DNA of 64,000 bases. Origin: Ignatzschineria larvae DSM 13226. GTDB taxonomy: Bacteria > Pseudomonadota > Gammaproteobacteria > Cardiobacteriales > Wohlfahrtiimonadaceae. The stretch is from positions 1,203,501 through 1,267,500 of the forward strand of contig NZ_CP150637.1 in the NCBI RefSeq assembly GCF_038500265.1, read 5' to 3'. This document shows positions 51,096-56,435 of this stretch, piece after piece (the first letter of the stretch is position 1; the number at the start of each line of letters is the position of its first letter). A program made the translations under genes and the position numbers. The notes under the pieces were generated by a model that saw nothing but the letters and a program-made list of their open reading frames with translations, had not been told where the DNA came from and made no database searches.

Positions 51096-51413
51096 AGGGA
51101 TCTCTTTCTCTTCTCTGTAATAAAGATTATTCAATAATGCTTGAACAATCATAATCGGGGGCAATAATTTGAGCGAACCATCTCATTATCATAACACGCC
51201 CCCTGAAAGTCTTGTATTGAGTACCCGCTGTTGTCTATTATACAGGCAAATTTTTACGGATATTTACGGTTTTATTTATACTATTAGCCTATGATTATCA
51301 ATTTAGGGAAAAGATCCCAAAGTTTGAACATCTCCATCAAGAGATCAAACAATACAAGAGGCATAGATTTAATAACCTCGACTAATGAGGGATAAAACAG
51401 AAGGATCAATATT

Positions 51414-52694
51414 GTGGATTGGCAAGATTGGAAATTAAAAAATCGAGAGAAAATCAAACATATCGTTGGATATGAAGAGAAGTTTGTTGATGAAATTTTA
51501 AGTAAAATCCCAGAGATCACTCCATCAGATCTCTTTGCGCAATTTCCCTTTAAAGATCATAGAGGTCATAACCGATATATCGATTTTATGATCTTCAACC
51601 GGGAAAAGGGCTATCAACTTCCTATTGAGCTTGACGGCTACTCGAAGATTAATAATAAAGAGTATCGCGTCTTCAATGATTTCTTAGAACGGCAAAATGA
51701 TCTCATTCAACAATTTGGTATCGTGCTACGCTATACCAATAAAAAAGCCTTCAGACATCAAGACGAAGTCAGAAAAGAGATTCGAAATGCCCTTCGATTA
51801 CAAGCTAATCGACAAGTTACCGAGCAACTTAAACAGACTCAAATCCAAGCATTAATTGATGAGTATGAAGCTAAAATTGCCCAATATGAATCGCAACAAA
51901 CCGCTGAAGTAAATAACAACGATCAGGAATCTTCAGAACATCTTAAAGAACAGCAACAAGAGATCGCTCTCGTCAAACAAAGCTTATCTCTCTTTAAACA
52001 GAATCATCTGCATGAGCTTGAAAGCATGCAACAAGCGCTCTCTAACCTTAAAAATTGGCAAAACTCAGAGCTTGGTTCTGTGACAACGGAAATAAAAAAG
52101 ACGCTCTATATCGGCATCGCAGTCATTGCTATTTTACTTATCATTGGATTTCTATTTTTTAGCACTGATAAATCTAATCAGAGTAACTCTGCTGCTAACA
52201 ATATAGAGATAGCAGCGGCTAATTCTCCGATCAATGAGCCTTCAGCAATGCTTCAATCTTCTGAAACGATCAATAACCAGGGCAACCTGCAAAAAGCGGA
52301 TCCGCCTAGTAATGATTCTATCTCTAACAAACAAGCCTTATCACATAATGAGATAGCGCCTCATAAACAAAATGTGGCCATTTCATCCAACGACGCAACA
52401 ACTTCTCCTAGCTATATTACGGCGCAAGAAGCATCTCAATATATCGGCCAATCAAAATTAGTCTGCGGTAATATCGTCGAAGAAAAGACTTTTGCAAAAG
52501 GGATATTCCTCAATTTTGACCGCCCTTATCCTAATACACCATTAACGATTGTACTTTGGGATAATAAAAATAGTGATAGTGCGCAATTACAAGCAAAAGC
52601 CACTGAGAAAAGATGGCTTTGTATTGAAGGGAAAATAGAATCTTACAAGAATAAACCTCGCATTAACTTACGCTCTTTAGAACAAATTCATTAA
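51414..52694 (+). CDS. membrane-anchored DUF559/VSR-like nuclease with C-terminal OB-like domain
   Basis: A 426-residue three-part protein. Residues about 15-130 look like a restriction-endonuclease fold of the DUF559/VSR type: RYIDFMI (Asp57), PIELDGYSK (Glu72, Asp74), ERQNDLIQQFGIVLRYT. A coiled coil (about 135-225) and one membrane helix (231-249) follow, then a Ser/Asn-rich linker and a domain from about 334 to 426 with Cys351 and Cys403, FLNFDRPYP, LTIVLWDN. The second gene encodes a secreted relative of this last domain. Start is GTG 51414, preceded by AAGGAT. If the N-terminus is cytoplasmic the OB-like part is periplasmic. No known defence genes adjoin it. Confidence 0.72.
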   Translation: MDWQDWKLKNREKIKHIVGYEEKFVDEILSKIPEITPSDLFAQFPFKDHRGHNRYIDFMIFNREKGYQLPIELDGYSKINNKEYRVFNDFLERQNDLIQQFGIVLRYTNKKAFRHQDEVRKEIRNALRLQANRQVTEQLKQTQIQALIDEYEAKIAQYESQQTAEVNNNDQESSEHLKEQQQEIALVKQSLSLFKQNHLHELESMQQALSNLKNWQNSELGSVTTEIKKTLYIGIAVIAILLIIGFLFFSTDKSNQSNSAANNIEIAAANSPINEPSAMLQSSETINNQGNLQKADPPSNDSISNKQALSHNEIAPHKQNVAISSNDATTSPSYITAQEASQYIGQSKLVCGNIVEEKTFAKGIFLNFDRPYPNTPLTIVLWDNKNSDSAQLQAKATEKRWLCIEGKIESYKNKPRINLRSLEQIH

Positions 52695-52730
52695 TCCTAT
52701 TAATAACAGGTTCCTTATAGGCGATTATCT

Positions 52731-53102
52731 ATGTGTAAAAAAATCATTTGTATTGTTTTTAGTCTGCTCTGCTTAAGCGCCATTGCAAGCGCTAATGAGA
52801 CCAAAATTGAGGCTTTCAAAGCGCCGTTTTATCTTAATCAATCGGTATTGGCTTGCGGAAAGTTAGCAGAAATTAAACATTTCAAGAATCGCCATTATCT
52901 TAATCTCGATGCACCTTTCCCCAAACAGACGCTAACTTTATTAATATGGGATAATCACTATCCTCAATTTGAAGAGAAATTGGGTAAACTCGACCAATAT
53001 CTTAATCGCCGATTTTGTGCTCTAGGCGTTATTGAACAATATAATGATCAATTACAAATTAAATTGAGCAATCCTCATTTCCTACGCTTAATGACTCCAT
53101 AA
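52731..53102 (+). CDS. secreted OB-like protein, paralogue of upstream C-terminal domain
   Basis: A 123-residue protein with a signal peptide (MCKKIICIVFSLLCLSAIAS, cleavage near ANA/ANE). The mature part matches the last 93 residues of the upstream nuclease: LACGKL/LVCGNI, HYLNLDAPFP/FLNFDRPYP, LTLLIWDN/LTIVLWDN, RFCALGVIEQY/WLCIEGKIESY, with two Cys conserved (42 and 96), plausibly a periplasmic disulfide. It starts 36 bases after the nuclease gene and is probably in one operon with it. Function unknown; binding nucleic acid or a partner protein is inference from the likely OB fold. Confidence 0.72.
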   Translation: MCKKIICIVFSLLCLSAIASANETKIEAFKAPFYLNQSVLACGKLAEIKHFKNRHYLNLDAPFPKQTLTLLIWDNHYPQFEEKLGKLDQYLNRRFCALGVIEQYNDQLQIKLSNPHFLRLMTP

Positions 53103-54316: not shown

Positions 54317-55061
54317 TTACTTGCTATCATTACTCTTAGATTTATTTTGCCTATTTTCTTTAGGAATCCATATAAGATCCTTTTTGGGACTTTGGAGTCC
54401 ATCGATATGTTCAAATAACTCTGGATTAATATCAATACCCATCGGATCTAATATAAAGTCAATCCCTTCCCTTCTAGCTAATTTTGCAGCAGGTACAAAA
54501 TCTGCATCGCCTGCAATCAAAATTATTTGTTTAACAAGCTTTTTCAAGGTTAATGATGATATATCGATTCCAATTTTCATATCGACACCTTTTTGTCTAA
54601 AAGATGGCTCTACGTCATTTTCAGTAATATCTTCTAGTTTTTTTCTTCCTTTTAAGAGATCTTGAATAACTCTATTTTTGTAGGTCCAACTAGTATTCGT
54701 AATTTTTCCAAATCGTAAAGCTACTTTTCTCAATTTTTTAAGCTCAATATGTAATGCTGTTCTAAATAGATATTCTTTAGTCTTGGTTGAATCATAAGCA
54801 ACTTTAGAAATTGGGTTATGTCCTTTATATTGAGCAGGAGGGCAATCATAAAAGAAAATTCTATAGAGATCTCTCTTTCTGCTATTTCCTTTCGCATTCA
54901 AATGAGACAAAGCATATTCAAAAATAAAAGTTGCTACTTTTTTAGAATCATAACAAATATCATCTACTTCTTGTTGGGATAATCCTTTAGGATATTTGTT
55001 GCTTAAATAACGAGATCTTTTTATCAAAAAAGCACCATCAATTCATATGGCTGTTGGCATT
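54317..55061 (-). pseudogene. NYN-domain nuclease gene with in-frame TGA at codon 6
   Basis: The natural start is ATG 55061, with GAGG 9 bases upstream. The reading is Met-Pro-Thr-Ala-Ile, then TGA (55044-55046), then IDGAFLIKRSRYLSNKYP and on to residue 236 counted from a TTG at 55027. IDGAFLIKR is the conserved first strand of NYN nucleases and carries a metal-binding Asp, so the frame is clearly continuous across the stop. The rest is intact: RIFFYDCPPAQ, RQKGVDMKIGIDI (Asp149, Asp155), IAGDADFVPAAKLA. Restart at TTG would lose the first Asp and has no ribosome-binding site. So it is a broken gene, a sequencing error or a recoded stop. Its base composition is more AT-rich than its neighbours, suggesting transfer. 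Confidence 0.8.
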
Positions 55062-55586: not shown

Positions 55587-56435
55587 ATGGCTAAAAAAAG
55601 ACGTACCAATAAAAATCAGAAACAAGTTGCTAATATTGCAAACAAATTCTTTCAGAAGAAGAATCCCATTTATTGGCTTTTAGGCATTATCGTGCTCATG
55701 GTGGGGGCTTATTTTACCGACTTTGATATTCGCCAATTTGAATTCCCCAAAGATCAAGAAGCTCGGCAACGGGTTATCTCTGAACAGAATTTTAATAAGG
55801 CTAAAACTGAACTTATCAAAATCTACAAAGCGCATCCTGAACAGAAAGAGTTCTATTGTGGTTGTGATTTCTCTTGGGAAGGTCGTAAGGGGATTGTTGA
55901 TCTGAAAAGCTGTGGTTATAAAGTTCGTAAAAATGAGGTACGCGCCAACCGAATTGAATGGGAACATGTGATGCCAGCCCATGCTTTTGGTAATCAACTT
56001 CAATGCTGGCAAAATGGAGGGCGAAAGGCTTGTCAGTCGGAACCTCACTATAGTGTAAAATTTAATACAATGGAAGGCGATATGCATAATCTCCAGCCCG
56101 CTGTAGGGGAGGTCAATGCGGATCGTTCTAATTTTGGTTTTAATGAGTTCACGAAAACTTTTAATCAATATGGCCAATGTCAATTTGCAACCGATTTTAA
56201 AAATCGTCAGGTACAACCCCGTAATGAGATTAAAGGGATGATTGCTAGAACTTACCTCTATATGGCTGATCGCTATGGATTAAATCTCTCCAAGAATGAA
56301 AAACGTCTAATGAGCGCTTGGAATAAGAGTTATCCCGTACAAAGATGGGAATGTGAGCGTAATCGGATTATTGAATCGGTACAAGGCAATGATAATCCCT
56401 TTATTACTCAGCAATGCCAAGCACGAGGACTTTAA
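55587..56435 (+). CDS. endonuclease I (EndA-like), membrane-anchored
   Basis: A 282-residue nonspecific DNase of the endonuclease I/beta-beta-alpha-metal family. The active-site segment is RIEWEHVMPAH (Glu126, His127, His132), followed by GDMHNLQPAVGEVNADRSNFGF with the Asn ligand. Instead of a cleaved signal peptide it has a basic N-terminus (MAKKRRTNKN) and one membrane helix at about 27-43, so the nuclease part is tethered in the periplasm. Several Cys pairs (CGC, C109, C140, C148) may form disulfides. E. coli EndA and Vibrio Dns are released from a signal peptide; the anchor is unusual. Confidence 0.88.
   Translation: MAKKRRTNKNQKQVANIANKFFQKKNPIYWLLGIIVLMVGAYFTDFDIRQFEFPKDQEARQRVISEQNFNKAKTELIKIYKAHPEQKEFYCGCDFSWEGRKGIVDLKSCGYKVRKNEVRANRIEWEHVMPAHAFGNQLQCWQNGGRKACQSEPHYSVKFNTMEGDMHNLQPAVGEVNADRSNFGFNEFTKTFNQYGQCQFATDFKNRQVQPRNEIKGMIARTYLYMADRYGLNLSKNEKRLMSAWNKSYPVQRWECERNRIIESVQGNDNPFITQQCQARGL

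Follow-up and report, generated by a model that had tools for sequence, protein, structure and literature searches.

Only a handful of systems, namely Zorya, Kiwa, and SNIPE, are known to target DNA during its entry into the cell. SNIPE (PD-lambda-1) is a nuclease bound to the membrane, where it cuts phage DNA as this is being injected; released from its tether, it becomes toxic unless it is catalytically dead, and it combines a membrane helix at the N-terminus with DUF4041 and GIY-YIG (PMC13190303). Zorya and Kiwa are inner-membrane systems thought to act where the phage injects (PMC12904381). DNases that prevent transformation are encoded by an ICE of Vibrio cholerae and a prophage of Campylobacter jejuni (PMC11472951). 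Here, we present a computational analysis of two adjacent genes of Ignatzschineria larvae, which encode a predicted membrane-anchored nuclease with an OB-like domain (gene 1) and a secreted OB-like protein (gene 2, OB-S). We suggest, with a probability of roughly 0.4, that this module is an accessory, horizontally spread nuclease stationed at the gate of DNA entry, where it would cut DNA that crosses the inner membrane, with phage DNA at injection being the likeliest target.

SNIPE is the closest precedent. Like SNIPE, gene 1 would cross the inner membrane once, keep its nuclease in the cytoplasm, act by its location at DNA entry, and be a defence gene of patchy distribution (PMC13190303). By contrast, the nuclease of gene 1 is of the DUF559/Vsr type and N-terminal with the helix following it, and the module includes an OB-like domain predicted to be periplasmic and, usually, a secreted partner. 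Neither GIY-YIG nor DUF4041 gave a Pfam match to the window proteins at E<=1, and in place of the N-terminal membrane helix with a cytoplasmic remainder found in SNIPE, gene 1 has its helix at residues 231-249 and the OB-like domain beyond it. With GIY-YIG, DUF4041, and the N-terminal helix all absent, the module falls outside SNIPE. The proposed site of action at the inner membrane is shared with Zorya and Kiwa; however, the module has no motor or ATPase and combines nuclease and putative sensor in one chain, and PADLOC returned no relatives of ZorA/B/C/D or KwaA/B for the window proteins at E<=1. Transformation-blocking DNases of mobile genetic elements are free nucleases, whereas the nuclease of the module is tethered and probably cytoplasmic. 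The likeness to these DNases is that a nuclease on a mobile element could bar incoming DNA (PMC11472951). In line with the expectation of the sequence-only reading, we found no description of this layout in a literature search that covered mainly open-access articles. Altogether, we regard the module as a variant among entry-localised nucleases, with a moderate chance that it forms a class of its own.

The window, i.e., the whole stretch of 64,000 nucleotides that was analysed (G000:C1:1203501-1267500 of a 2.56-Mb genome), contains the two-gene module proposed in the sequence-only reading, and both ORFs were recovered on the forward strand (Table 1). A local profile together with hydropathy bears out the layout proposed for gene 1, which from the N to the C terminus comprises the nuclease domain, the coiled coil, a single membrane helix, a linker, and the OB-like domain with two Cys; the profile delimits the latter to residues 322-426. 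The coiled-coil character was judged by eye, and the topology of the gene 1 proteins was read from hydropathy or by eye. Of 19 membrane helices, 13 show a positive-inside charge bias, 3 are ties, and 3 have the opposite bias. We propose that the nuclease would be cytoplasmic and the OB-like domain periplasmic. A Bestrophin-like Pfam match to the coiled coil and helix (3.6e-07, below the cut-off) was rejected as compositional.

Table 1. Features of the module, its associated endonuclease gene, and prophage-type relatives. Positions without a locus name are those of the window.
Feature	Position	Strand	Basis or remark
RBS-like AGAAGGA 5' of gene 1	51399..51405	+	read in sequence
Gene 1, 426 aa, GTG start	51414..52694	+	ORF reading, domain profile, alignments
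Likely PD-(D/E)XK (DUF559/Vsr-type) nuclease domain, residues 1-135 (local profile: 1-134)	51414..51818	+	
Predicted coiled coil, residues 136-228	51819..52097	+	helical in both AF2 models
Membrane helix, residues 231-249	52104..52160	+	hydropathy
Q/N/S-rich low-complexity linker, residues about 250-332	52161..52409	+	weakly constrained (dN/dS)
OB-like domain with C351 and C403, predicted periplasmic	52410..52691	+	
Gene 2 (OB-S), secreted OB-like protein, 123 aa, ATG start, two Cys, C-terminal FLRLM signature	52731..53102	+	
Endonuclease I (EndA-like), associated gene outside the operon	55587..56435	+	Pfam Endonuclease_1, 1.8e-44
Prophage-type stretch with a nuclease-TM gene without OB	L056 7597-9550		
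Prophage-type stretch with a nuclease-TM gene without OB	L057 531-2484		
Prophage-type stretch with a nuclease-TM gene without OB	L058 901-2854		

Both genes are, to judge from their conservation, real genes and not chance ORFs, because the genome of I. ureiclastica keeps both of them (92% and 98% amino acid identity for gene 1 and gene 2, respectively) and because dN/dS between the two Ignatzschineria species is low in the nuclease domain (0.024) and the OB-like domain (0.026). It is similarly low in the coiled coil (0.028), 0.069 for gene 2, and 0.395 in the linker (residues 253-332). This combination of tight folded parts and a free tether is the pattern expected of real proteins. The I. 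ureiclastica orthologue of gene 1 starts at the equivalent place with TTG as its codon, and I. ureiclastica was the only species returned by a contig scan of genomes with a single-protein query.

Several lines of evidence point to a nuclease of the Vsr/EDxHD type, in agreement with the VSR/DUF559-like nuclease of the sequence-only reading. The gene 1 family carries the acidic motif D-x(14)-E-x-D with a following polar residue, which is that of the Vsr/EDxHD branch of PD-(D/E)XK nucleases. Among the 24 aligned copies, of which one is broken, the putative catalytic residues D57, E72, and Q94 are kept in all 23 intact domains; at position 74, 22 of these have D and one has E. The latter copy (G694; L050 5341-6339) has the same nuclease domain with C-terminal membrane helices and without an OB-like domain. 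The window protein itself has only a weak Pfam match to MTES_1575 (0.0094, below the cut-off) and no match to DUF559 (PF04480) at E<=1; its Vibrio and Polaromonas relatives (P0007, 23.1 bits; P0010, 28.6 bits) pass the DUF559 gathering score of 20.6 bits, and the P0001, P0004, G025, and G862 copies score below it. A profile of the nuclease domain aligned with PDB entry 3hrl, annotated as 'Endonuclease-Like Protein', with IVDF...VEADG...VLRF at the same positions (E 0.064). Both AF2 models of gene 1 were poor, with a mean pLDDT of 47 from the single sequence and 45 from a seven-row alignment; the seven-row model, usable as a hint to secondary structure only, has the order helix-strand-strand-strand-helix-strand across the motif. 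With VIA-align, the N-terminal part of this low-confidence model was matched to the catalytic domain of the homing endonuclease I-Bth0305I (3r3p_B; Z 8.2, 98 aligned, 3.3 A), Bax1 in the XPB complex (6p4w_B; Z 8.2, 97 aligned, 2.6 A), and Cdn1 (8z4i_A; Z 8.0, 111 aligned, 3.2 A), a Z of about 8 being a level at which, according to the tool's warning, matches may arise by chance. Because these low-Z matches agree with the sequence evidence, we consider it likely that the N-terminal domain is a Vsr/EDxHD-type nuclease with D57, E72, and Q94 as putative catalytic residues.

I-Bth0305I is related to Vsr, and gene 1 has in common with the DUF559 (PF04480), REase_MTES_1575 (PF18741), Vsr, and EDxHD (I-Bth0305I) nucleases the D...ExD motif, the order of helices and strands in the low-confidence model, and relatives above the DUF559 cut-off; unlike them, it is a membrane-anchored fusion with a coiled coil and an OB-like domain. 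I-Bth0305I belongs to the EDxHD enzymes, and its site resembles that of restriction enzymes (PMC3943268); in our own comparison of residues, gene 1 has Q94 where the EDxHD enzymes have His-Asp. Other structural matches were discarded: Foldseek of the seven-row model returned nothing at E<=0.001, and entries among its top rows (R2 retrotransposon, Can2, and DrdV) were set aside as non-significant; what VIA-align aligned to the coiled coil, including PI3K and Vipp1, was dismissed as long-helix matches; and PDB profile matches to the designed repeat proteins 5k7v and 6vfh were taken as chance repeat matches. Searched singly with phmmer, neither the nuclease nor the OB-like domain matched an entry in the PDB.

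Gene 2 starts 36 bp downstream of gene 1 and, as had been read from the sequence before, consists of a single OB-like domain after an N-terminal stretch that, by eye, looks like a signal peptide (MCKKIICIVFSLLCLSAIASA). Both OB copies of the window have two Cys. All 14 OB-S proteins encoded next to gene 1 have the C-terminal FLRLM motif and two Cys in the mature part, and exactly two Cys are present in 18 of 19 gene 1 OB domains, the Polaromonas copy having one. These cysteines may form a disulfide in the oxidising periplasm. The OB assignment is based on the strand pattern and on sub-threshold matches of related domains to the Pfam OB families tRNA_anti_2 and tRNA_anti-codon (P0002, 21.6 bits against a cut-off of 27; P0013, 22.9; P0008, 18.9); the window proteins did not match the Pfam OB families, nor did an OB-S profile match the PDB. 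In a midpoint-rooted FastTree, the OB-S proteins and the gene 1 OB-like domains each group in a clade of their own, whatever the host, and the OB of an Acinetobacter middle gene (see below) groups with the gene 1 type. The duplication is therefore older than the spread of the module, and on this tree the two OB types are an ancient co-inherited pair and not the product of a recent duplication. We correct the sequence-only reading in two respects: the duplicate is old, and a third, unlinked paralogue is present in the genome.

That the two genes belong together held up in a survey of gene pairs. We identified 19 intact nuclease-TM-OB genes and a broken one (G1031) in Cardiobacteriales-type genomes, a Moraxellaceae-like family, and plasmids of Vibrio, Acinetobacter, Roseomonas, and Polaromonas. 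OB-S is adjacent and on the same strand in 14 of the 19 loci, downstream of gene 1 in 13 of these (gaps of 3-873 bp) and upstream in one (3-bp gap); the broken locus has it as well. In these 14 pairs, the distances between nuclease domains and between OB-S proteins co-vary (mirror-tree r 0.69, reached in 0 of 5000 permutations), a comparison in which shared host ancestry is ignored. Neither of the outcomes that the sequence-only reading named as speaking against it, a predicted fold unlike a nuclease or unlinked homologues, was encountered. Because the remaining 5 of 19 loci (L021, L022, L032, L034, and L097) have no OB-S, gene 1 is probably able to act without its secreted partner. A third gene lies in the middle of the set in 10 of 20 loci and encodes a hairpin of a TM, a charged helix, and a second TM. 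The hairpin protein has 103-117 aa in L049, L091, L092, L093, L094, and L098, is frameshifted in L095, and is extended at the C terminus by a further OB-like domain in L031, L089, and L090. Nuclease genes without OB (L050 and L056-L058) are outside the 19, as is a second Roseomonas plasmid (H3), which has the same match statistics as the first (H2) and was left out of the counts.

The distribution of the module is uneven. Gene 1 is present in 2 of 9 genomes of the genus; the flanking lplA is present in 9/9, and the gene on the other flank (ADH) in 2/9, and with synteny breaking at once, a clean insertion boundary was not apparent. Any match was found in 7 of 32 genomes of the order (five with the nuclease part), in one of 369 in the class sample, which is the source genome itself, and in 10 of 398 in the phylum sample at 1e-10 (three with the nuclease part). 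In family f11, taken to be Moraxellaceae because of the Acinetobacter plasmid copy, 17 of 299 genomes match, 11 of them with the nuclease part. Six of 72,556 plasmid records match, five with the nuclease, together with three IMG/VR contigs and none of 50,697 phage records. The nuclease domain of the window is 74% identical to that of the Acinetobacter indicus plasmid copy and 53% identical to that of G010 from the same order, which speaks for horizontal transfer. Its relatives show the two- or three-gene set to be a real module that is both patchy and mobile.

Some copies lie among defence genes. On the A. indicus plasmid p80-1-2-tetX3, the module is located between hsdS and hsdR, and the ORFs of G1015 read in the same order. 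With only these 2 of 20 loci so placed, the module lacks the fixed position that an accessory gene of type I restriction-modification would have. On the Polaromonas plasmid pPNAP01, gmtY, a VPA1269-family gene, and gmtX, which form a gamma-mobile-trio element, precede gene 1, and AbiE genes are nearby. Pfam searches of 107 neighbours of the Moraxellaceae-like copies gave GmrSD_N (3), ResIII (3), EcoR124_C (2), and phage integrases (3). None of these is in the list for 128 control ORFs, which names 25 families and is thus too short for a rigorous comparison. With PADLOC, 217 families gave matches across these neighbours and 29 across the control ORFs (top 25 families listed), a weak comparison since the 217 are inflated by many redundant GajB models matching two helicases. 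For either window protein, PADLOC returned no family at E<=1. The context is uneven, L020, L022, and L092 having ordinary chromosomal neighbours. Sel1-repeat proteins recur near the Moraxellaceae-like loci L091-L094 (7 of 107 neighbours), and in the window itself an NYN-domain gene (54317-55027, 236 aa), represented by two shorter ORFs in G008 (L025 7723-8360), lies downstream.

The three IMG/VR contigs encode a 371-aa nuclease-coiled coil-TM protein without OB, and their terminase is ~60% identical to those of N4-like phages (the N4 label being read from phage names). The nuclease gene is preceded by one whose product is small, secreted, and weakly matched by Adhesin_E, and the two could possibly function in superinfection exclusion. 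The G010 copy of gene 1 (L020 5649-7352) is alone in having an extra N-terminal membrane helix, and it has a short helix for which a pairwise search gave similarity to a portion of the prophage protein L056 9089-9550 (E 1e-05, 40% over 35 aa).

A notable feature of the module is its neighbourhood of secreted nucleases, a gene for a periplasmic or secreted nuclease lying <3 kb away in 8 of 20 loci. Endonuclease I is ~2.9 kb from gene 1 in the window and in G008; that of the window is perhaps membrane-anchored in the periplasm because of a membrane-helix-like stretch at its N-terminus. The Polaromonas plasmid encodes an endonuclease I ~100 bp away that is 45% identical to that of the window. The distance of Endonuclease_NS from gene 1 is 616 bp in Roseomonas, 890 bp in Vibrio, 979 bp in Polaromonas, 1188 bp in G943, and 841 bp in G1031, and in G862 it lies at the gene's end; in G943, an SNase gene follows OB-S after 5 bp. 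The G862 copy (L097 7337-8383), which has a CNNC...CFNC zinc-ribbon-like N-terminal extension and no OB-S, is situated between two Endonuclease_NS copies. Endonuclease I matched in 9/9 Ignatzschineria genomes and Endonuclease_NS is present in 59 of 60 genomes of genus g487; since both are core genes, the module in these genera sits beside a resident gene. The three g487 loci have a kup neighbourhood in common and may be non-independent, and one control stretch (L129), from a contig already known to hold Endonuclease_NS, is uninformative for this family. Among plasmids, a tblastn search with the Vibrio Endonuclease_NS found relatives in 237 of 72,556 records, and the gene lies <1 kb from gene 1 on 3 of 4 distinct module plasmids.

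We suggest that the module works as follows. The coiled coil and single membrane helix would anchor the nuclease to the inner membrane from the cytoplasmic side and keep it away from the chromosome, with the OB-like domain of gene 1 exposed in the periplasm. OB-S and, in the Moraxellaceae-like relatives, the hairpin protein would probably complete an envelope complex that touches DNA, or the machine carrying it, during passage through the periplasm, and this contact would place or activate the nuclease such that DNA is cut on arrival in the cytoplasm. This proposal builds on the invariant D57, E72, and Q94 and the relatives that reach the DUF559 score, the linkage of OB-S and its co-variation with the nuclease, mobility, the company of hsdS/hsdR, gmtX/gmtY/AbiE, and GmrSD_N/ResIII/EcoR124_C, carriage on N4-like prophages, the nearby secreted nucleases, and the precedent of SNIPE. 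Against it count the lack of a PADLOC model and of relatives in phage records, the loci without OB-S, the prophage version without OB, the uneven defence context, the poor AF2 models, the mixed charge bias, and the sub-threshold OB assignment. Overall, the interpretation offered in the sequence-only reading is partly supported: the nuclease type and the linkage and co-variation of the genes agree with it, whereas an interaction of the two proteins across the inner membrane, DNA binding by the OB-like domain, and the sensing or cutting of incoming DNA are proposals. It did not include the hairpin gene of the Moraxellaceae-like relatives, the nearby secreted nucleases, or the prophage version. 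A bolder version is rather unlikely in our estimate, namely a two-sided gate. In this version, a periplasmic OB complex (membrane OB, OB-S, and hairpin) would catch DNA on its way in, still outside the inner membrane, and would signal through one membrane helix to the inner Vsr-type nuclease, in cooperation with periplasmic nucleases. If it were true, foreign DNA would be recognised by location before it enters the cell, and the module would form a class of its own within entry immunity, one that uses a soluble sensor in the periplasm.

The same module could instead act as a barrier to transformation. Together with the neighbouring periplasmic nucleases, it would degrade transforming DNA both in the periplasm and on its exit from ComEC, which would spare mobile elements from being recombined out. 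Acinetobacter (a genus inferred here) and Vibrio are naturally competent, and the module is carried on plasmids and at patchy chromosomal sites. ComEC is present in the source genome; however, it is widespread, occurring in 10 of 14 control genomes. Such a barrier would fit the position of Endonuclease_NS, which is no more than 1.2 kb away in three loci on plasmids and three on g487 chromosomes, and that of EndA, which is close by in Ignatzschineria and Polaromonas; the DNases of V. cholerae and C. jejuni set an example for it (PMC11472951). However, because the nearby nucleases are core in both chromosomal groups, they did not arrive there with the module, and the defence-type neighbours point equally to phage. 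We consider this explanation doubtful, although the most plausible of the rivals.

Alternatively, OB-S might bind and restrain a periplasmic or effector nuclease (Endonuclease_NS, EndA, or SNase), with gene 1 in the same regulation. The repeated proximity to Endonuclease_NS and EndA and the SNase gene of G943 would agree with this; nevertheless, L032, L034, and L097 have Endonuclease_NS beside gene 1 yet lack OB-S, and many OB-S loci have no secreted nuclease nearby, which makes such a control function very unlikely. Slightly less probable still is the scavenging of external DNA as a nutrient by envelope DNA-binding proteins and nucleases. While secreted nucleases and OB-like proteins would fit nucleotide uptake, a nutritional system would not be expected to be patchy, to be carried on plasmids and prophages, or to lie in a type I RM context, and we noticed no phosphatase or nucleoside transporter neighbour in the loci read. 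Vsr-type domains work in mismatch repair elsewhere, and purifying selection on gene 1 is strong, as would be expected of a housekeeping protein for repair or the envelope with an OB-like part that is structural only. However, the source genome is the only one of the class sample with a match, and 3 of the 398 genomes from the phylum have the nuclease part; with the membrane anchoring and the mobile context, this makes a housekeeping role the least probable explanation that we considered.

A nuclease acting at DNA entry would add to the few systems of this kind an unrelated nuclease in a reversed layout with unusual, dedicated periplasmic parts. Its presence on Acinetobacter and Vibrio plasmids places it in hosts in which transformation and phage both matter, and the question behind the module is whether foreign DNA is already sensed by bacteria while still outside the cytoplasm.

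OB-like proteins related to those of the module also occur by themselves. OB-only loci outside the 19 include L051, L052, L099-L104, G026, G029, G710, G043, G661, G195, and G770, among others. The third, unlinked paralogue of the source genome, which is secreted and OB-only, is located at G000:C1:1324623-1324928 (L002 1483-1857, minus strand). Solo secreted proteins with a VCG motif, read in their sequence starts, adjoin a sec215 neighbour in G001 (L149 6254-6658) and G005 (L151 427-831). Together with the third paralogue, these proteins suggest a vertically inherited relative.
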